Below, piece by piece: positions 1 through 38,402 of a stretch of 38,730 bases of DNA (positions are counted from its first letter, which is position 1; the number at the start of each line of letters is the position of its first letter). Under the pieces are notes generated by a model that ran no database searches, had not been told where the DNA came from, and saw only the letters and a program-made list of their open reading frames with translations. The position numbers were made by a program, and so were the translations under genes. The stretch covers positions 1 to 38,730 of the forward strand of contig JAQULH010000010.1 of the NCBI GenBank assembly GCA_029004215.1, read 5' to 3'. The DNA is from Patescibacteria group bacterium. GTDB taxonomy: Bacteria; Patescibacteriota; Patescibacteriia; 2-12-FULL-60-25.

Positions 1-146
1 CGGCTAAAACTTCGGACGAACTTCAGTCCGAAGGTCAGAGTCAGGCCACGGCCGTCAAAACCGATCCCAAATACAAGGACGTTGGCCGCAACGATCCTTG
101 CCCTTGCGGGTCAGGTTTGAAATTTAAAAAGTGCCACGGGAAATGA
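1..146 (+). CDS. secA: SecA C-terminal end (partial, host gene completed by prophage)
   Basis: The last 47 codons of a protein-export ATPase subunit SecA, open at the left edge. The frame read from base 3 ends in a SEC-C zinc-binding tail, [12 protein letters not shown] followed by KFKKCHGK and TGA at 144-146. In SecA this tail (CxC, then CH) binds zinc and helps contact SecB and the membrane. The tail sits at the prophage junction: the last codons after the shared core at 129-136 should be phage DNA that replaces the displaced host codons, so SecA stays intact in the lysogen. The match to the SEC-C consensus is essentially complete; SecA itself is inferred from this tail, since stand-alone SEC-C proteins also exist. 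Confidence 0.88.
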
Positions 147-649: not shown

Positions 650-1489
650 ATGGACAATGCAGATCAAACGAAAGTCGTGATCAAAAATCCCGACGACCTC
701 AAGCTCTTCCTGGCAAAAAACTACATGAACCAGATTAAGAACTTCTTTGGCAATGAGAAACAAGCGATGAAGTTTCTGTCCTCGGTCATGTCAGCGGTCC
801 AGAAAATGCCAAAGCTGCTTGATTGCGAGCCTATGTCAGTCATCAATTCATTCATGACTATGGCTCAGCTTGGGCTTATGCCCTCGGACGTTTCCGGTGA
901 AGCTTTCGTCCTGCCCTATGACAGCAAAAAGAACGGGTTGGTGGCTCAATTCCAACTCGGCTATCAGGGGCTAGTGACTTTGTTTTACCGGGCAGGAGGC
1001 CAAAGCGTGCGCGCGGAGATCGTCCGTGAGCACGATGACTTCTCGTACGAGAATGGCGTAATCAGACACAAGATCGACATTTTCAAGTCGAACGAGGATC
1101 GCGGGGAACCAATCGGCGCCTACGCGATAGCTCTGGTGAATGGACAAGAGATAGCGAAAGCCATGAACAAAAAAGACATTTTGGACATGGCAAAAAACTT
1201 CTCCAAATCATTTAACAGCGCTTACACGCCGTGGAAGGAAATCAATGATCCCGAACTGTGGATGTGGAAGAAGACTGTTTTGAAACAGCTCGGGAAGCTC
1301 ATGCCGAAGAACGAGACGATTTTCAGGGCCATTGCGGAAGACAACCAGGATGGTGACCTGAAAAAGCCTGTTGAGGGACTGGTCGATTCCTCAAACTTGA
1401 AAATGGGTAACTTCTTGAAGGAAAAATATGAAAAGGATCCGCAGGGCGAAGCTCCGCAAGCTGACACCGCCAAAGGTGATAGCGCGTAA
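650..1489 (+). CDS. recT: RecT-family single-strand annealing protein
   Basis: A 279-residue protein of the RecT/Bet annealing family, which coats 3' single-stranded tails and anneals them to complementary strands during phage recombination and replication. The family core is clear: an N-terminal region around PMSVINSFMTMAQLGL, the central strand-helix QFQLGYQGLVTLFYRAG (residues 100-116), and the late signature with W195 followed by MWKKTVLKQLGKLMP (205-219). The C-terminal 45 residues are charged and low in complexity, as in other RecT proteins, where the tail binds partners. The next gene starts inside this one (62-base overlap), a layout that couples translation of RecT and its nuclease, as in recE-recT and exo-bet pairs. 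Confidence 0.93.
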   Translation: MDNADQTKVVIKNPDDLKLFLAKNYMNQIKNFFGNEKQAMKFLSSVMSAVQKMPKLLDCEPMSVINSFMTMAQLGLMPSDVSGEAFVLPYDSKKNGLVAQFQLGYQGLVTLFYRAGGQSVRAEIVREHDDFSYENGVIRHKIDIFKSNEDRGEPIGAYAIALVNGQEIAKAMNKKDILDMAKNFSKSFNSAYTPWKEINDPELWMWKKTVLKQLGKLMPKNETIFRAIAEDNQDGDLKKPVEGLVDSSNLKMGNFLKEKYEKDPQGEAPQADTAKGDSA

Positions 1490-3581
1490 TGAGGTCGGAA
1501 ACACAGAATTTGCCGGGTTCCCCCTGGATCACTACAGCTATTCCTCCTTCACGAAATTCAGCACCAACCCGCTCATGTTTAAGGTCAATTACCTAAACGG
1601 TGATCAGATCGAAACTACATCCTCGCCAACAAACGTGATCGGTAAAGCGGTCCACAAGGCCCTTGGTGCCTACCTCGGAGGAGAGGAAACGCCTCCTCCA
1701 TCGGATGAAGGTGAAGCCATAAAGTTCGGGCATAGCGCAGGGATCGATTATCTCAAGGGATACTCGGATGGATTCATTGAATACAACGATAGGATTAAAA
1801 ATCGCGCCAAGTTGGATGAAAAATTTGCTTTTGCTTTCTTTGGCTACATCAAAGAGAGCAACCTCAAAAAGAACATCAAGGAGATCCTGCTGGTCGAGAA
1901 AATGCTCCAACATAAAGTCGAAGTGGATGGCAAGGTGCTACCGATTCCGTTGAAAGGATCGGCTGACCTGGTTTACCGGGACTTGGAAGACAGGATCATT
2001 ATCTGGGACCACAAATTTACGGAACGTTTTTCCAACCCGGACGCGATAGACGGCGCGAAGCTGATTCAGGCGGCCACAAATTATTTGTTGGTTCACGCCG
2101 AACTCAATGAGGCGCCGCATGCCATGGTGTTCACGGAATACAAGATCACTGAAAATCAGGATAAGTCTCCCCAAATTAGAGAGTATTGGATTGTTTTCGA
2201 CCAACATCCCTTGGTCTTCCAATTCTTTTATCGCTTCTACGAGGACATCACGAACGCTTTGCTCGGAAGGCAAGTGTACGTGCCGAACTTGTACGCGATA
2301 TTCGATCGGGAGGTTGCGATCCTGGCCTACATCCACAGGCTCGATGTTGATGAAGAACGTGATAAAGCTTTCAAGAAATTGAAAGTCGATAACATCACAG
2401 ACTTCCTCAAAAAGAAAATCGAGAAGGACGGGGCAATGAAGCGATATCTTGAAACCGTGTCGCAAAAATTCATCTCTGCAAAAACCCTTAACTACAAAGC
2501 TATGACCGTTGAGGAAAGAATCAAAATGAAGCTCGCCGAACATGGCCTATCCGTTGATTTTCACTCAAAGGTTGTAGGTTGTTCGGTCGTGCAATACAGG
2601 TTTGAGCCTTCAATCGGGCTCAAGATGTCCAAAATAGAGTCTTACGTCAAAGATATCGAACAAGTCGTCGAGGTCTCGGGTATTCGCATTCTGGCCCCCA
2701 TTCCTGACACGGGATTGGTCGGGTTCGAAGTGCCGAATAAGGAACGCACCTACCCCGCAACCGCACCAAACGTGCGGGGATACGAGATCCCGGTCGGCGT
2801 CGATCTACTTGGCGAAGCTCTTTACTTGGACCTGCGGGAAGCACCGCACGTGCTGATCGCCGGCGCGACTGGATCGGGCAAAAGCGTGTGCATGACGAAT
2901 ATCATCAAGAATGCGCTCAGTTTGCCGAAATCCCAAGTGCATCTGATCGATCCGAAGATGGTGGAGTTGGCTCCTTTCGCCAAAGAAGCCGCATCGTACA
3001 ACCATGATCCGAAAATGATCTTGGACTTGCTCAAAGAGTTAGTCGATGGCATGAACGCGCGCTACGCAAAAATGCAGGAGGCCGGCGTACGCAATATCAA
3101 GGATTTCAAGCGAACAATGCCGTACCAATTTGTCTTCATTGATGAATTTGCGGACTTGATCATGACCTCGCGCCAACTCAAAGCGAGAAGCAAGGCAAAA
3201 AATTCCGCCAATAAAATAATTGCCAGGGAAGCCAAAAAGCTCGATCCGACTTTGGCCAGAAAGAAAATGAAAGAGATCCAAACTGACGTTGAAGAAGTGA
3301 CGGAATTTAGCTGCGAGGATCTGCTCATGCTTCTGGCACAGAAGGGCCGGGCCGCCGGCATCCACATCGTCATGGCCACACAAAGGCCCTCGGTGGATGT
3401 GATCAATGGATCGATCAAAGCAAACTTCCCGACGCGCATAGCTTTTAGGACATCCACGGCCATTGATAGCCAGGTGATTATCGACCAAGCCGGAGCGGAA
3501 AAGCTGCTCGGTAAGGGCGATATGCTGCTACTTGATCCGTCCAGGATCGGCTTGCAGCGCCTACAAGGATTTAACGCCTAA
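1428..3581 (+). CDS. RecB-type PD-(D/E)XK nuclease fused to an FtsK-type DNA motor
   Basis: A 717-residue two-part protein. Residues 1-300 carry the motifs of a RecB/Cas4-like nuclease: GKAVH (H76), GSADLV (D180), WDHK (D194, K196) and QAATNYL (Q214, Y219). Residues 370-717 match FtsK/SpoIIIE: the alpha-domain strand-helix pattern (SVVQYRFEPSIGLKMSKIES, 386-405), Walker A GATGSGKS (479-486), Walker B FVFIDEFADL (568-577), then LLAQKGRAAGIHIVMATQRP and IKANFPTRIAF. A lysine-rich insert of about 45 residues follows Walker B. The DNA-sequence-reading gamma domain of FtsK is absent. The start is supported by GAAGGA a few bases upstream. Beside recT, the likely job is to resect DNA ends as a motor-driven nuclease and hand the tail to RecT. 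The domains are seen; the joint action is inferred. Confidence 0.88.
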   Translation: MKRIRRAKLRKLTPPKVIARNEVGNTEFAGFPLDHYSYSSFTKFSTNPLMFKVNYLNGDQIETTSSPTNVIGKAVHKALGAYLGGEETPPPSDEGEAIKFGHSAGIDYLKGYSDGFIEYNDRIKNRAKLDEKFAFAFFGYIKESNLKKNIKEILLVEKMLQHKVEVDGKVLPIPLKGSADLVYRDLEDRIIIWDHKFTERFSNPDAIDGAKLIQAATNYLLVHAELNEAPHAMVFTEYKITENQDKSPQIREYWIVFDQHPLVFQFFYRFYEDITNALLGRQVYVPNLYAIFDREVAILAYIHRLDVDEERDKAFKKLKVDNITDFLKKKIEKDGAMKRYLETVSQKFISAKTLNYKAMTVEERIKMKLAEHGLSVDFHSKVVGCSVVQYRFEPSIGLKMSKIESYVKDIEQVVEVSGIRILAPIPDTGLVGFEVPNKERTYPATAPNVRGYEIPVGVDLLGEALYLDLREAPHVLIAGATGSGKSVCMTNIIKNALSLPKSQVHLIDPKMVELAPFAKEAASYNHDPKMILDLLKELVDGMNARYAKMQEAGVRNIKDFKRTMPYQFVFIDEFADLIMTSRQLKARSKAKNSANKIIAREAKKLDPTLARKKMKEIQTDVEEVTEFSCEDLLMLLAQKGRAAGIHIVMATQRPSVDVINGSIKANFPTRIAFRTSTAIDSQVIIDQAGAEKLLGKGDMLLLDPSRIGLQRLQGFNA

Positions 3582-3921: not shown

Positions 3922-4494
3922 ATGTCAAAAATAATTTATCCATTCGCAGCAATACCAAACCAAGTGCTCAGAGGAGGTCATGGACCAGTAAACGTCGCGG
4001 TCCTGGCGGTTCTCATGAGCCACGGAAGGAGCACCGCGTCAGCGAAAACTCTTGCCGATGAGGTCGGGTGTGATCGAAAGAGCATTTTTAAGGCAATTGC
4101 TTACTGGGTGGATAAGGGACCGGCCTTCGGAATCTTCCTTCGAACAAGCGGTGGAAAGACGACTGGCAAAGCAACGATCATTGAAATTGAGATCACAACC
4201 TGTACCGAAAACGGTACGGGTGCAGTCGAGGGGTGTACCGAAAACGGAACAGGTGGTGTTCCAAAAACGGAACACCTACCTGTACCGAAAACGGTACACA
4301 AAGAAGAACCTATTAAGAAGAACCCAGAAGAAGACGGTAGGACGTGTGGAAATGTGGATAAAACCAAAAGACCCTTTATCGAGGGGGATCCTGCCTTCTT
4401 CGACGAGATACGAAAGGTGTGGCGTGTCAAAACGCATAACGGAGTTTGGCTGGATTACGTGGGCGACGTGAAAAAGAACCTTGTTTACAAATGA
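3922..4494 (+). CDS. Lambda-O-like replication initiator
   Basis: A 190-residue protein with a winged helix-turn-helix in the first half (ASAKTLADEVGCDRKSIFKA at 39-58, then a wing-like KTTGKATIIEIEI at 79-91), a linker, and a charged C-terminal part. The linker DNA (codons 94-126) carries four inverted-repeat iterons and is followed by an A-rich stretch. This is the plan of lambda O, where the N-terminal domain binds iterons in its own gene and the C-terminal domain recruits the helicase loader. GGAGG lies 14 bases before the ATG, inside a putative stem. Family membership rests on architecture rather than sequence identity. Confidence 0.7.
   Translation: MSKIIYPFAAIPNQVLRGGHGPVNVAVLAVLMSHGRSTASAKTLADEVGCDRKSIFKAIAYWVDKGPAFGIFLRTSGGKTTGKATIIEIEITTCTENGTGAVEGCTENGTGGVPKTEHLPVPKTVHKEEPIKKNPEEDGRTCGNVDKTKRPFIEGDPAFFDEIRKVWRVKTHNGVWLDYVGDVKKNLVYK
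4202..4297 (+). repeat. Origin iterons inside the initiator gene
   Basis: Four 16-bp inverted repeats with consensus GTWCCGAAAACGGWAC lie at 4202-4217, 4235-4250, 4258-4273 and 4282-4297. The first and fourth are perfect palindromes around AAAA; the second and third carry one or two changes (the third has A where the others have G in the left arm). Spacings are 33, 23 and 24 bases. Immediately right is a purine-rich, A-rich tract (about 4298-4340), like the unwinding region of the lambda origin. The repeats keep the reading frame open and encode CTENGT and VPKT motifs. Confidence 0.8.
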
Positions 4495-5670: not shown

Positions 5671-5745
5671 TTCGGGGTGGAGCAGCGGCAGCTCGTCCGG
5701 CTCATAACCGGAAGGTCGCCAGTTCGAATCTGGCCCCCGAAACCA
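5671..5745 (+). tRNA. tRNA with CAU anticodon, initiator-like body
   Basis: A complete cloverleaf of 75 bases with encoded CCA. Acceptor 5671-5677 pairs with 5735-5741; D stem 5680-5683 with 5691-5694 and a short 7-base loop; anticodon stem 5696-5700 with 5708-5712; anticodon CAT at 5703-5705; T stem 5718-5722 with 5730-5734 around TTCGAAT. The body resembles bacterial initiator tRNA, including the A11-T24 pair and the CTCATAA loop context. It departs from the initiator rules in having a paired T1-A72 end and C29-G41 in place of G29-C41. It could serve as Met (initiator or elongator) or, if modified by TilS, as Ile2. Confidence 0.93.
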
Positions 5746-17662: not shown

Positions 17663-20600
17663 ATGGCTCAAGTCCAAAACCTGCTCCGTTATTCGGAGGA
17701 TCTGACCAAGACGATCGCTTGGAGCGTATCTGATTGTGTCGCTTCTTCCGCAATGATGATTTCAGACACGAATGACGCGATCGCCAAGTATCACTTTGTT
17801 TATCAAAGCGCGTCTTACGGCAATGCTCCACTCACGATTTCCGTTTCGGCCAAAGCTGGTACCAAATCTTGGCTTTGCTTTGACGTTAATGGTGCATTGA
17901 TTGCTTATTTCGATGTTGGCAATGGAGCCTTGGGCACGATCCAATCCTCTGCTTTTAAGTGCTCTATTGTTCCTGATCCGGTCATGGGAGCCGGTTGGTA
18001 CCGATGCACGATGACTTATACGCCAACTAGGTTTTTGGAATCCTTTACGTTCATCATGGCAAATGGCAATACCGCAGCTTCTTACCAGGGAGACGGCACT
18101 GGTACGATCTACCTGACCAGGATGCAGCTCACAAGTTCGAATCATGCTGGACCATACGTGAAAACTGAACTTGGCAAGATTGATACCGGAAATATCCGAT
18201 GTTTGGCTCAACCCTATACGCTAGTAAACATCCTTACGGATGGAAACATGGAGGCGACAAATCCGGCTGTTCCGCTTGTTGATGGGAATATGGAGGCGAC
18301 GGATACGAGTGCGTGGACGGCTGGAAATAATGCATCATTGGCCAAATCAACTACAAATCCTCATTCTGGGACACGAAGCTTAGTAGTAGATAGGACGACT
18401 TCAGATGCGCCTTTTGCTTATCAGACCATCTTGACTATTGGAAAAGTTTATAGGGTTCAGGGATGGGCTAAAGGCGATGGGACAGTGGCTCCTGTGCTTA
18501 CGGATGGCCCAAATGCTGTTTGGACCGGAACCAGCAGCACAAGTTGGCAACCTATTGATGTGACGTTTCTTTCGGCAGGGACGACTTTACGCTTAATTGC
18601 GAGCAATTATACAGGCGTTTCTCATCCTTGCGAGTTCGACGGCATTACGATCGTTGATCTGACGGCGGGAAGCTACACCTCGCAAGCTGCTATTTTATCG
18701 AAACAAACAGCCTCGCCTCATAGTGGCAGTCAGTGTCTCAGAGTTAAGGCGGACGGGACTCAGAGTTATGCCATAGCGAATCAACCGGTTACTCAAGGTA
18801 AAAGATACCGCGTTACCGGCTGGGCGCGAAGCGATGGGACCAGGGTGCCGCGGGTTTACCTTTTAAATGGCGCCTCATGGGTAGGAACAGCCTCAACGGG
18901 CTGGCAAAGATTTGATATTGCTGGCGTAAGCAACGCGGGGGCTTTGGTCTATTTCGGCCACTGGAGCAATACCGGCTATGTTGAATTTGACGATATTGAA
19001 GTGATCGATTTATTTACAACTCCAACCAGACAACTAGCTCAGCCATATCCTACTTTGAATCTCTTAATCGATGGCGATATGGAGGCAACCAATGCAGCCC
19101 CTGCCGCAACCGACCTGAATATGGATCTGGCCGATACTTCGGCTTGGACATCTTCTAATGCAACGCTATCAAAGCAGTCGGGGGCACGCACAGGAGGATC
19201 TGGATCGCGGGTTTTACGCGTAGCCGCAAATGGCGCCGCCTTTGGATATGCTTCCCAAGCCAACGGCCTCATAAACGGGCACGTTTACCACATCACGGGT
19301 TGGTTCCGTGGCGATGGTGTGAACGCCTCACCGGTGCTGTATGGAGGCGGTACGCAATACGCAACAGGAACAACCTCAAACGCTTGGCAGTCTTTCGATG
19401 TTATTGCCACCCAAACAACTAATAATTCTTTGAATCCTTACGGGAGCTTCCCCGGAAGCGTGGGTTATGTGGAGTTCGACGACCTTGTTATTACTGATAT
19501 TACGGCAGGGGCGTACACAGCCGGGGATTCGGCTTTGCTCTATAAAGTAACGACCAACCCTCATTCTGGAAGCCAAGCCTTGCGTGTGGCTTATAATTCG
19601 GTCAGCTATCCTTATGCGAGGCAATTGGTGTTCACCGTTGGAAAACCCTATTTGGTTAGAGGTTTTGCCCGTGGAGATGGAAGCAAAGCTCCAAAGATTT
19701 TCGATTCCACGACGGCAGCAGTGCTTTGGTCTGGTACATCCTCTACTACGTGGCAACCATTCGCGTTCGAGTTTATTCCAGGTGTTACTGCAGGTTGTGA
19801 TTTCTACGCTTATACGACTTCGGCTGGATATGTTGACTTCGATGACATTCAAGTTATCGATCTGACCTCTACGCCTCAAAGGCAATTAGCACAACCTTAT
19901 ACGCTCATAAACAAGTTGGTAGATGGAGACATGGAAGCAACGAACGCGGCGGTCGGTGGCTCTGACTGGGACATGGAGGCGCTAGACACGTCTGTCTGGA
20001 CGCCGGGAATTAGCGGGGCCACTTTGAGCAAGGTAGCCGGTTCATTGTCAGGGACAGGCTCAAGAAAGTTACGAGTGACTAGCACAGGTTCTGGCGGGTT
20101 TGCCTATCAATCAAACCTTATTCTCGGTCATACGTACCGATTTCGCGGTTGGGCGGCCGGAGACGGCGGTACGGGTATCCCATCCCTTAGGGTAGGCGGC
20201 GGAGGCACTTTTTGGACAGGCACAAATTCAATATCCCCTCAGTATTTTGACGTCGTGGCCACGGTAGATTCTTCTTCTTCGCCTCTGCTTAATAATTCCG
20301 GTGGAGCAGGTACTTATGCAGATTTTGATGACATTGTAATCAACGACGTGACCGCCGGAAGCTACACCGCCTATCAGTCAATAGTCTCAAAGAGTATTGC
20401 TTCACCTCATTCTGGAGCGCAAGCATTAAGAGTCGCATACGATGGATCACATGCGTACGGAGCGGCTTATCAAATTATTTTAACTGCCGGTAAAAGATAT
20501 CGCGTTACTGGTTGGGCGCGTGGCGACGGTGGTGTCGCCTTACCAATGATCGCGAAAGAAGGTTCGGCGGTTTGGTCAGGAACGGCTAGTGCTGCTTGGC

Positions 20601-21589
20601 AAAGATTTGATTTTGACCTTGGTCCGAATATCGGGACGGCTTTTTACCTGCAATGCAATAATCTTGCTGCGGGTAGATGGGTTGAGTTTGATGACGTGCA
20701 GGTTATTGATCTTTCGGCTACTCCAACACGATTTCAAGCACCAGTAATTCCTCCGGTAAATGTTCTCGTGGACGGCAATCAAGAAGCGACGAACTCAGCC
20801 GTGCCTTTGGTAGATGGGAATATGGAGGCAGCCGGAATTGCGGCCTGGTTGAATGTTATTGGTACCACCTCTAAGTCTTCCGCCAGTCCGCACTCTGGTG
20901 GGCAGAGCTTAAGAATAACCGCCACAGGCGGGGTTCTGGCAGAGGCGGCACAGATCGGTATTTTGCAAGCAGGACATGTCTATCGTGTTAAGGGTTGGGC
21001 GAGAGGAGATGGGCTGGCAGGCTCCGTCAACGTGATCATAGGCGGATCGGGCACAACACAACCGGTCGCCACACTAAGCAATACTTGGCAACAATTCGAT
21101 ATAACCGGCCTTTGTTCTGGCGCCGCAAGTCTTTATTTTTACAGTGCGGGCCTGACCAACAACACGGGTTATGCTGAGTATGACGACATCACCATCACAG
21201 ATGTGACAGCCGCGCTTGATTGGCTAGTCTATGGAGACGCGATCGTCTCGAAAAGGACAGAAACGCCGCATAGCGGATCACAGTGCCTCCGATTTACTTA
21301 CGGCGGAACACCTGGTTGGGGAGGGTACAAAGCCCTCACGGTTGGTCATAGGTATCTATTCAAAGGTTGGATGCGCGGGGACGGCGTAAGAGCTCCGATT
21401 GTTTACGATTTCGGCACAGGAGCGGTCCTGGTTACCGGGACAATCAGTACAGAATGGCAATACTTTGAAAAGGCATTTTGTGATGTCGGCGCTTTGACGA
21501 TCTATCTTTCCAGCTCGGCCGGCTACGTTGAGTTTGATGATCTTGAGCTGATCGACCTCACTTTAACACCAGCAAGAATGACCGCTTAA
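17663..21589 (+). CDS. Large tail fibre or spike with eight carbohydrate-binding-like modules
   Basis: A 1308-residue protein. The first 170 residues form a concanavalin-like domain typical of phage fibres (NLLRYSEDLTKTIAWSVSD, then YRCTMTYTPTRFLESFTFIM). The rest is eight beta jelly-roll modules of the CBM4/9 type, each with a DGNMEAT-like start, PHSGSQALRV, YRVTGWARGDG, a W-GT-ST-WQ-FD core and an ending like GYVEFDDIEVIDL. Odd and even modules differ in their ends (TAGSYT against TPxRQLAQPY), so a two-module unit has been copied four times. It probably binds surface sugars of the host or of its capsule. No hydrolase motif is visible. Confidence 0.8.
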   Translation: MAQVQNLLRYSEDLTKTIAWSVSDCVASSAMMISDTNDAIAKYHFVYQSASYGNAPLTISVSAKAGTKSWLCFDVNGALIAYFDVGNGALGTIQSSAFKCSIVPDPVMGAGWYRCTMTYTPTRFLESFTFIMANGNTAASYQGDGTGTIYLTRMQLTSSNHAGPYVKTELGKIDTGNIRCLAQPYTLVNILTDGNMEATNPAVPLVDGNMEATDTSAWTAGNNASLAKSTTNPHSGTRSLVVDRTTSDAPFAYQTILTIGKVYRVQGWAKGDGTVAPVLTDGPNAVWTGTSSTSWQPIDVTFLSAGTTLRLIASNYTGVSHPCEFDGITIVDLTAGSYTSQAAILSKQTASPHSGSQCLRVKADGTQSYAIANQPVTQGKRYRVTGWARSDGTRVPRVYLLNGASWVGTASTGWQRFDIAGVSNAGALVYFGHWSNTGYVEFDDIEVIDLFTTPTRQLAQPYPTLNLLIDGDMEATNAAPAATDLNMDLADTSAWTSSNATLSKQSGARTGGSGSRVLRVAANGAAFGYASQANGLINGHVYHITGWFRGDGVNASPVLYGGGTQYATGTTSNAWQSFDVIATQTTNNSLNPYGSFPGSVGYVEFDDLVITDITAGAYTAGDSALLYKVTTNPHSGSQALRVAYNSVSYPYARQLVFTVGKPYLVRGFARGDGSKAPKIFDSTTAAVLWSGTSSTTWQPFAFEFIPGVTAGCDFYAYTTSAGYVDFDDIQVIDLTSTPQRQLAQPYTLINKLVDGDMEATNAAVGGSDWDMEALDTSVWTPGISGATLSKVAGSLSGTGSRKLRVTSTGSGGFAYQSNLILGHTYRFRGWAAGDGGTGIPSLRVGGGGTFWTGTNSISPQYFDVVATVDSSSSPLLNNSGGAGTYADFDDIVINDVTAGSYTAYQSIVSKSIASPHSGAQALRVAYDGSHAYGAAYQIILTAGKRYRVTGWARGDGGVALPMIAKEGSAVWSGTASAAWQRFDFDLGPNIGTAFYLQCNNLAAGRWVEFDDVQVIDLSATPTRFQAPVIPPVNVLVDGNQEATNSAVPLVDGNMEAAGIAAWLNVIGTTSKSSASPHSGGQSLRITATGGVLAEAAQIGILQAGHVYRVKGWARGDGLAGSVNVIIGGSGTTQPVATLSNTWQQFDITGLCSGAASLYFYSAGLTNNTGYAEYDDITITDVTAALDWLVYGDAIVSKRTETPHSGSQCLRFTYGGTPGWGGYKALTVGHRYLFKGWMRGDGVRAPIVYDFGTGAVLVTGTISTEWQYFEKAFCDVGALTIYLSSSAGYVEFDDLELIDLTLTPARMTA
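18224..21586 (+). repeat. Four tandem copies of an ~840-bp two-module unit
   Basis: Units begin near 18224, 19057, 19906 and 20757, each about 830-850 bases. Protein motifs recur in register but the DNA has diverged, so the copies are old or kept by selection for protein shape. The conserved blocks could still recombine and change fibre length. Confidence 0.75.
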
Positions 21590-37065: not shown

Positions 37066-37290
37066 ATGCCGACATCTGACGACGGCTCAGGCCGTTTTTG
37101 CCGATGCAAGCTCTCCGGGCAGGAGGCCAAATTAAAAACGACCATACTGACCGTGCGGATTAGAGACGCCACGATGTTCAGGTGCAAAAAGAGAGCGCCC
37201 GTTTTTAATATTGACGGAAGCCTCCGCTCATCTGACACCACGGCCCTAAACCGTGTGAATCAGGTGGGCGGATTTTTGCAACGCATATGA
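37066..37290 (+). CDS. Possible small protein coupled to integrase (74 aa)
   Basis: ATG at 37066 opens a frame whose stop overlaps the integrase start (ATGA, 37287-37290). The sequence has CRC near residue 12 and FRCKKRAPVFNIDGSLRSS later, basic overall. Overlap with integrase supports it as a real coupled gene, perhaps a regulator or excision factor. Against it: no ribosome site, mediocre composition, and a small hairpin with four T inside it (37082-37099) that could attenuate transcription instead. Otherwise this stretch has no gene. Confidence 0.35.
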   Translation: MPTSDDGSGRFCRCKLSGQEAKLKTTILTVRIRDATMFRCKKRAPVFNIDGSLRSSDTTALNRVNQVGGFLQRI

Positions 37291-38402
37291 AAATGTTAGT
37301 AGCGATAAAAGAGTTTACAGACTGGAGGAAATTCAAAGTGAAGGACGTGACCGTGCGTGGCTATGACCGGGAGCTGCGGAATTTGTGCGTGCATCTTGGC
37401 AATCCGGAGATAGAGTCAATAGAGTTGGCCCATATTACCCGACTGCTGAACCTGATGGTTGAATGTGGTTGGGCCATGAATGGCCTGATTCCAAAATGCC
37501 AGGCATTTAAGAAGTTCTTTGAGTATTACCGTCTGCGAGGGCTCAAGGTGATCAATGAAGATCTGATCCCGTTGCCGGCCAAAGAATTTCATATCCCCCG
37601 CGTGATCACGGAGGAGGAGTACGCCAAGGTGCTTTCAGTCGTGCCGGTCAAAACAAATGATCCTAGGCATATTCGCAACCGAACCATCATCAACCTGCTT
37701 TGGGACACTGGCGCGCGCAATGGCGAGCTTTTATCCCTAAACGTGGATGATCTGGACGTGGTCAACCGCCAGGCGACCATACGAACCGAGAAAAACAAAG
37801 GCTCGCGTCCTATTCGGCAAATATTTTGGACCGAGGGAACCAACGAGCAACTGCTCAAGTGGCTACATAAACGTGAAAGCTTAAAATCAAAAATTGTATA
37901 CGAGGAAGCAGAGGCCGTCTTCATTTCCATCTGCTCCGGACCGACGCTTCGATCCGGCAAGAGATTTACGATCAAGGGAGTGGGGGAAATGCTACGACGT
38001 TATTGCAATCGCGCCGGCATCCCGTACAAGAACGCGCATGCGTACCGGCATCACATGGGTCACACGATTATTGAGCAAACGGGAAGTAATGCGGACGTCA
38101 TGAATATTCTTGGCCATGCCACTTTGGAGAGCACGAAGATCTACACTTGGATGGTTGGAAATGAGCTAAAAGCCAGGTGGCAACTGTTCAATGAACCTGG
38201 CCGGCCGAACGAAATCCACAGGGGATTTGACCAATCTAATACGGGGGCAGTACAATCCACACCATATGCCGAACCCGTTGCGTTGGGACAAAGTCGCGAA
38301 AGTCATGGAGTACCGCCGAAAAGGTATTCCGTTCCAAAAGATAGCCAAAATGCTAAAAAGCGACAAAAAAACCGTATGGCGGTGGCACAAATACGGGTGT
38401 GA
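37287..38402 (+). CDS. int: Tyrosine-family integrase
   Basis: A 371-residue site-specific recombinase. The N-terminal SAM-like core-binding domain (about 1-95) is followed by the catalytic domain with R144 in DTGARNGELLSL, a lysine near 169-171 (TEKNKGSRPIRQ), H251-x-x-R254 in HAYRHHMGH, H277 in LGHATLES and the nucleophile Y286 in KIYTW. It should join attP to the 3' end of secA using the AAGTGCCA core. The family normally ends 15-30 residues after the tyrosine; here about 70 low-complexity residues follow (from NEPGRPNEIHRGF), and this DNA also codes a helix-turn-helix protein in another frame. Lies at the far end from attL, next to attR. Confidence 0.93.
   Translation: MKMLVAIKEFTDWRKFKVKDVTVRGYDRELRNLCVHLGNPEIESIELAHITRLLNLMVECGWAMNGLIPKCQAFKKFFEYYRLRGLKVINEDLIPLPAKEFHIPRVITEEEYAKVLSVVPVKTNDPRHIRNRTIINLLWDTGARNGELLSLNVDDLDVVNRQATIRTEKNKGSRPIRQIFWTEGTNEQLLKWLHKRESLKSKIVYEEAEAVFISICSGPTLRSGKRFTIKGVGEMLRRYCNRAGIPYKNAHAYRHHMGHTIIEQTGSNADVMNILGHATLESTKIYTWMVGNELKARWQLFNEPGRPNEIHRGFDQSNTGAVQSTPYAEPVALGQSRESHGVPPKRYSVPKDSQNAKKRQKNRMAVAQIRV

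Follow-up and report, generated by a model that had tools for sequence, protein, structure and literature searches.

The window analysed here, a 38,730-nucleotide contig (C10) of a 1.2-Mb host bin with a completeness of 95.6%, carries a prophage of Patescibacteria in which a nuclease and an FtsK-type DNA translocase are encoded as one protein next to recT. We consider it probable that this nuclease-FtsK fusion carries out resection within a two-component recombinase of the phage, formed by an exonuclease and the annealing protein RecT, and that this nuclease has a built-in pump for double-stranded DNA (dsDNA). The two genes and the parts of the fusion are arranged as follows:

650..1489, plus strand: recT annealing protein (PF03837 E 3e-35, TIGR00616 E 2e-42)
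1418..1422, plus strand: Shine-Dalgarno-like AAGGA inside recT, 5 nt before the ATG of the fusion at 1428
1428..3581, plus strand: nuclease-FtsK fusion gene, a single open reading frame (ORF) of 717 aa without internal stop
1515..2297, plus strand: PD-(D/E)XK nuclease domain, approximately residues 30-290, with conserved H76, E157, D180, D194, K196 and Q214
2298..2492, plus strand: helical linker from nuclease to motor in the AlphaFold2 model; residues 344-353 have a predicted local distance difference test score (pLDDT) <50
2493..2738, plus strand: FtsK alpha domain, residues 356-437 (PF17854 FtsK_alpha E 4e-14, above the curated cut-off)
2784..3569, plus strand: FtsK beta (RecA-like ATPase) domain, residues 453-714
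2862-2885, plus strand: Walker A GATGSGKS, within the beta domain
3129-3146, plus strand: Walker B FVFIDE, within the beta domain
3156..3320, plus strand: lysine-rich insert after Walker B, 55 aa here, delimited from the alignment of 34 family members

The initial annotation, made from the sequence alone, had described a nuclease joined in one chain to FtsK alpha and beta domains without the gamma domain and overlapping recT, and this description holds up in profile searches. PDDEXK_1 (PF12705) matches residues 36-238 (E 2e-8) and FtsK_SpoIIIE (PF01580) residues 453-656 (E 1e-31), both above the curated Pfam cut-offs. The C-terminal half is also recognized as FtsK by NCBIfam (PRK10263, E 4e-48), PHROGs (phrog_1358, E 5e-75) and the PDB, where it matches P. 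aeruginosa FtsK with E 5e-51; no single PHROG match spanning both halves was found. The fusion has no Pfam match to the gamma domain, and in all 34 members of the main alignment the chain ends 2 to 8 aa past the beta domain. The ORF starts inside recT, with an overlap of 62 nt.

The window protein is one of 47 fused copies, the others being encoded in a prophage of genome G326 and on 45 IMG/VR contigs, of which 32 with a full-length fusion came from alignment-based scans and 13 more from a RecT-based scan. When viral contigs were scanned with a single protein, the whole protein retrieved nothing and the nuclease half one locus; an alignment with two relatives revealed the family. A scan of the GTDB r220 genome contigs with the nuclease alignment found no relative, and the matches in INPHARED and PLSDB were to the motor half only, none covering 80%. 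The initial annotation had named separate genes for the two halves as an outcome that would contradict it, and on all 47 contigs the frame is fused.

Although the copies diverge to as little as 32% identity with the window protein, the catalytic residues of both halves are retained. The main alignment has 34 members, and counts over 47 copies come from an enlarged set. Among the nuclease residues singled out in the initial annotation, H76, D180, D194 and K196 are present in 47/47 copies, as is E157, and Q214 in 46/47, whereas Y219 is not conserved (21/34). The Walker A lysine K485, Walker B D572 and E573, the arginine finger R641 and the sensor Q652 occur in every copy that is complete in that region. 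In the numbering of P. aeruginosa FtsK, the Walker A lysine, the Walker B DE pair, the arginine finger R620 and loop II K643 do not vary across the main alignment (34/34), the K643 equivalent being found in 42/43 of the larger set, and R632 is nearly invariant. The ratio of nonsynonymous to synonymous substitution rates (dN/dS) is 0.01-0.10 for the nuclease and 0.04-0.15 for the motor in the three closely related pairs whose synonymous divergence was sufficient in nuclease and motor alike (L054/L055, L168/L170 and L051/L059); by this measure both halves are under purifying selection. The lysine-rich insert had been called unusual. It is present in the window protein, but its length ranges from 9 to 91 aa over the 34 members, and judged from this alignment it is hypervariable and not a conserved feature of the family.

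In the tree, the fused motors group together in a clade of 34 rows (Shimodaira-Hasegawa-like approximate likelihood ratio test 98) apart from the host FtsKs and the unfused phage FtsKs, and the fusion therefore has a single origin among the sampled sequences, followed by retention. A recent capture of the motor from a host FtsK is unsupported, as the host FtsKs fall into a separate clade (98).

An annealing-protein gene lies upstream of the fusion on the same strand in 34/34 members. It is recT in 31 of them and a RecT-like gene of the phrog_561 type in three (L054, L055 and L060; the scan was done on L054 and L060, and L055 is near-identical to L054), where it overlaps the fusion by 4 nt. Altogether, the partner gene abuts or overlaps the fusion in 26/34. 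Judged by gene adjacency, the fusion and its RecT-like neighbour are a phage recombination pair of single-strand annealing protein (SSAP) and nuclease. Around 26 unfused phage FtsK loci, neither a RecT of the fusion-linked kind nor such a nuclease was found in the flanking sequence retrieved (6 kb in most cases); as the RecT profile derives from RecTs linked to the fusion, other SSAPs could escape detection there. In the reverse direction, a survey of recT neighbourhoods, which the initial annotation had proposed as a check, recovered the fusion at 39 of 80 loci, a biased rate as the scan was seeded with fusion-linked RecTs. No split version, with the motor and this nuclease as separate neighbours, was seen in this survey.

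The RecT tree shows which nuclease stands in the place of the fusion in two related phages. Every fusion-linked row falls into a single clade of 46 rows (support 99), 42 of which have the fusion and two are cut by a contig end. The remaining two (L142 and L148), nested inside this clade, have a YqaJ (lambda-Exo-type) nuclease encoded by the next or next-but-one gene downstream of RecT (PF09588, E 4e-19 and 2e-17). RecT is known to pair with the nucleases YqaJ, DUF3799 and RecE, the last of which digests DNA ends in the 5'-3' direction (PMC8093625). Since YqaJ holds the same slot and these nucleases are established RecT partners, the fusion most simply fills the lambda Exo/RecE role; most likely, it resects dsDNA ends for RecT as these enzymes do, with its own duplex pump. 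The earlier proposal of a single-chain nuclease-motor that serves an annealing protein is thus strengthened by 47 phage loci, by the upstream RecT-like gene in all 34 members examined and by the YqaJ replacement in two phages.

The motifs H...D...DxK...Q place the nuclease half in the RecB family of PD-(D/E)XK nucleases (PDDEXK_1). Its AlphaFold2 model (pLDDT 88.7; predicted template modelling score, pTM, 0.87) matches the folds of the AdnA nuclease (Z 14.6), RecE (13.7), AddB (13.7), Dna2 (13.2) and the Cas4-type ACE1 (12.4). Cas4 proper was rejected, as it needs four iron-sulphur cysteines and the window protein has no cysteine in residues 1-345. Membership in the YqaJ/lambda Exo or RecE families was rejected as well: the sole Pfam assignment of the nuclease half is PDDEXK_1, and the likeness to RecE is by fold alone. 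The motor, by its alpha and beta domains, Walker motifs, arginine finger and loop II K643, is a member of the FtsK/SpoIIIE superfamily, and its fold matches FtsK (6t8o/2ius) with E about 1e-26, 6e-27 for the DNA-bound form, versus ~1e-6 for HerA.

Each half of the fusion has known relatives. Bacterial FtsK shares the alpha and beta domains, has ~32% identity over the motor and ranks top in the fold search; it has in addition a membrane part and a gamma domain, whereas in the fusion no N-terminal membrane domain and no C-terminal gamma domain were found, the nuclease occupying the N-terminus, and its motor belongs to a clade apart from the host FtsK. The RecE-RecT, lambda Exo-Bet and YqaJ-RecT pairs likewise have a nuclease gene of the PD-(D/E)XK fold beside an annealing-protein gene, but their nucleases have no motor domain, and the fusion nuclease is of the PDDEXK_1 rather than the YqaJ type by sequence. 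RecB, AddB, AdnA and UvrD-Cas4-like (pfam12705) proteins combine the same nuclease family with an ATP-driven motor in one chain, and fusions of RecB-family nucleases to superfamily 1 (SF1) helicases are known (PMC5704561); in those proteins an SF1 helicase takes the place of the hexameric FtsK pump, and the nuclease usually forms the C-terminal part. DndH of DndFGH and other HerA/FtsK capture systems also hold a nuclease and a HerA/FtsK ATPase in one polypeptide. Such single chains of restriction endonuclease and HerA/FtsK are documented in DndH, one clade of which has FtsK-alpha (PMC10853773), so the principle of a nuclease-pump fusion has a precedent. DndH differs in its length of ~1700 aa, its extra domains and its place in a defence operon, and DndH/SspH membership was rejected, as SspH profiles cover the motor only and the scanned neighbour proteins match no PADLOC model.

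The comparison with HerA-NurA drawn in the initial annotation is useful as a working analogy and fails as a family label. Both systems couple a ring-type dsDNA pump of the HerA/FtsK class to a nuclease, NurA being positioned at the exit face (PMC9960219). HerA-NurA, however, consists of two proteins, a HAS-barrel motor and NurA, whereas the phage fusion, encoded beside RecT, unites in a single polypeptide a RecB-family nuclease and a motor with the FtsK alpha domain. Both sequence and fold identify this motor as FtsK, its match to DUF87 (HerA) being weak; the nuclease is of the RecB/RecE/AdnA type without a NurA match in Pfam, and membership in HerA-NurA was rejected accordingly.

We infer the ring state and polarity, the loading and the nuclease-motor coupling of the proposed enzyme. 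Six chains would assemble at the end of a dsDNA into a ring like that of FtsK, and ATP hydrolysis would move the duplex in the direction from beta to alpha. FtsK translocates DNA in this direction, with the exit at alpha (PMC7321959), and NurA docks at the exit face of HerA on the N-terminal HAS-barrel (PMC9960219). As the nuclease is N-terminal to alpha, where FtsK-moved DNA leaves, it would sit at the exit of the pump as NurA does on HerA, through a connection that is partly flexible in the AlphaFold2 model. The duplex leaving the ring would meet the nuclease domains tethered to alpha and its 5' strand would be degraded; the remaining 3' strand would pass to RecT, probably translated from the same mRNA, for binding and annealing. 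Without gamma, there would be no loading of the KOPS (FtsK-orienting polar sequences) type and no XerCD activation, which fits loading at ends. In its full form, the proposal is a homohexameric ATP-driven dsDNA pump with the resection nuclease in-chain at its exit ring and with RecT as the recipient of the 3' strands. Such an enzyme would be the single-protein equivalent of HerA-NurA and would have had one origin before spreading among phages, including at least some that infect Patescibacteria; for this whole set of statements we see about an even chance.

Several observations weigh against a motor-driven resection nuclease. In 8/34 phages, 0.4-2.4 kb lies between recT and the fusion. The AlphaFold2 model of the full chain, based on 34 sequences, has a pLDDT of 85.8 and a pTM of 0.51, a value too low to fix the placement of the nuclease relative to the motor. 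FtsK translocates duplex DNA intact and has no known unwinding activity, so pumping by itself would not account for a 3' single strand. In P. aeruginosa FtsK, loop I contacts DNA through K657 and R661; these residues are not conserved among the fusions, which have an R or K at the R661 position in 14/34, so the motor may grip DNA differently from FtsK. This decay of loop I also agrees with an ATP-independent exonuclease, whose motor only positions or tethers the nuclease, or moves RecT or the nuclease along the duplex, and does not power resection; lambda Exo and RecE need no ATP, and nucleases of this kind occupy the same slot. Yet Walker A, Walker B, the arginine finger and loop II K643 persist in highly divergent copies, and this retention, together with purifying selection on the motor half, implies that ATP turnover matters; we give this explanation little credence.

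Two further explanations place the fusion outside recombination. It may be a DNA-degrading weapon that, like restriction factors of the DndH type, destroys host or competing phage DNA for nucleotide supply or superinfection exclusion, its link to RecT reflecting mere co-expression. The motor half does match the SspH and mads_8 profiles of PADLOC, but the matches are restricted to the motor and none of four scanned neighbour proteins matches a defence family; moreover, the constant pairing with at least two families of annealing proteins and the replacement by YqaJ point to recombination, making a weapon unlikely. The fusion might also act in replication or packaging, its motor clearing or resolving branched or concatemeric phage DNA and its nuclease trimming branches or ends before terminase acts. 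Ends and branches of DNA are substrates of Cas4/RecB-type nucleases as well as of FtsK-like pumps, and the fusion lies near a gene (3922-4494) with weak matches to a replication-initiator family (phrog_270) and to HTH_36. However, a terminase large subunit (phrog_2, E 1e-15) and a portal are encoded by the phage itself, and an exchange with lambda-Exo-type nucleases would be unexpected for a packaging factor, so that we regard such a role as improbable. A resection nuclease working for RecT remains our preferred explanation.

Relatives of the nuclease half, 275-299 aa long, occur as standalone PD-(D/E)XK proteins in three Patescibacteria chromosomes:

L120, 6441-7268: standalone nuclease related to the phage nuclease half
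L121, 7178-8065: standalone nuclease related to the phage nuclease half
L122, 6859-7758: standalone nuclease related to the phage nuclease half

Neither a motor nor recT was found near these three genes, and the neighbours common to L120 and L122 we take by eye to resemble hisS and dnaG. The nuclease of the fusion may derive from such standalone proteins or, conversely, may have given rise to them. In BFVD, a PD-(D/E)XK protein of virus sp. ctkyY8 (A0A8S5RDL0) has 28% identity to the fusion over 436 columns, and the same virus has a separate 155-aa FtsK fragment (A0A8S5RET9); the two may belong to one more fusion that appears split because of gene calling or an alternative genetic code.

Two genes near the ends of the window relate to the prophage and its insertion:

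3..146, plus strand: C-terminus of host SecA (SEC-C motif, PF02810 E 1e-11), probable chromosomal junction of the prophage
37287..38402, plus strand: tyrosine integrase of the prophage (PF00589 E 2e-22)

The secA gene of the bin is truncated by the end of contig C44, and together with the SecA tail at the start of the window this makes the left end probably chromosomal; the remainder is a tailed phage, with terminase, portal and, at the right end, the integrase. The nearest records to the host FtsK are from Patescibacteria, Candidatus Uhrbacteria among them, and the host is an Uhrbacteria-like member of the Patescibacteria. No PDDEXK_1 protein besides the fusion was found in the bin, at the completeness given above, so the phage may supply a nuclease activity that its host lacks.

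The phage also carries a tRNA-Met(CAT) gene (5671-5745) within a sparsely coding stretch, and a 1308-aa protein of repeated units (DGNMEATN...SGSQCLRV-like; 17663-21589) that is possibly a carbohydrate-binding or receptor-binding virion protein. Inside the gene at 3922-4494, four 20-nt repeats around the palindrome GTACCGAAAACGGTAC lie at 4198-4297 with spacings of 33, 23 and 24; by analogy with lambda O, these are possibly origin iterons within an initiator gene. The second prophage, on an 842-kb contig of G326, a genome of the same class as the window, has a serine recombinase and an S24 repressor close to recT and the fusion. Near its integrase, at 1788-3971 of L123, lie genes that by eye resemble those of a mercuric reductase and Mer transport proteins.

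Known phage annealing systems combine RecT or Bet with a passive exonuclease, and a motorised nuclease as RecT partner would, to our knowledge, be the first of its kind in phages. A survey of recT neighbours in Firmicutes phages lists YqaJ, DUF3799 and others, and no FtsK fusion (PMC8093625), and our literature search, incomplete in its coverage, found no report of this nuclease-FtsK fusion. What appears to be novel is a phage RecT partner in which a RecB-type nuclease and an FtsK alpha-beta pump are combined. If the proposed role is correct, evolution has adapted FtsK pumps to end resection, and one gene could supply a processive enzyme for recombineering. The fusion provides a testable one-chain model of a duplex pump feeding a nuclease, a question still open for HerA-NurA, and it offers a marker gene for the little-known viruses of Patescibacteria.
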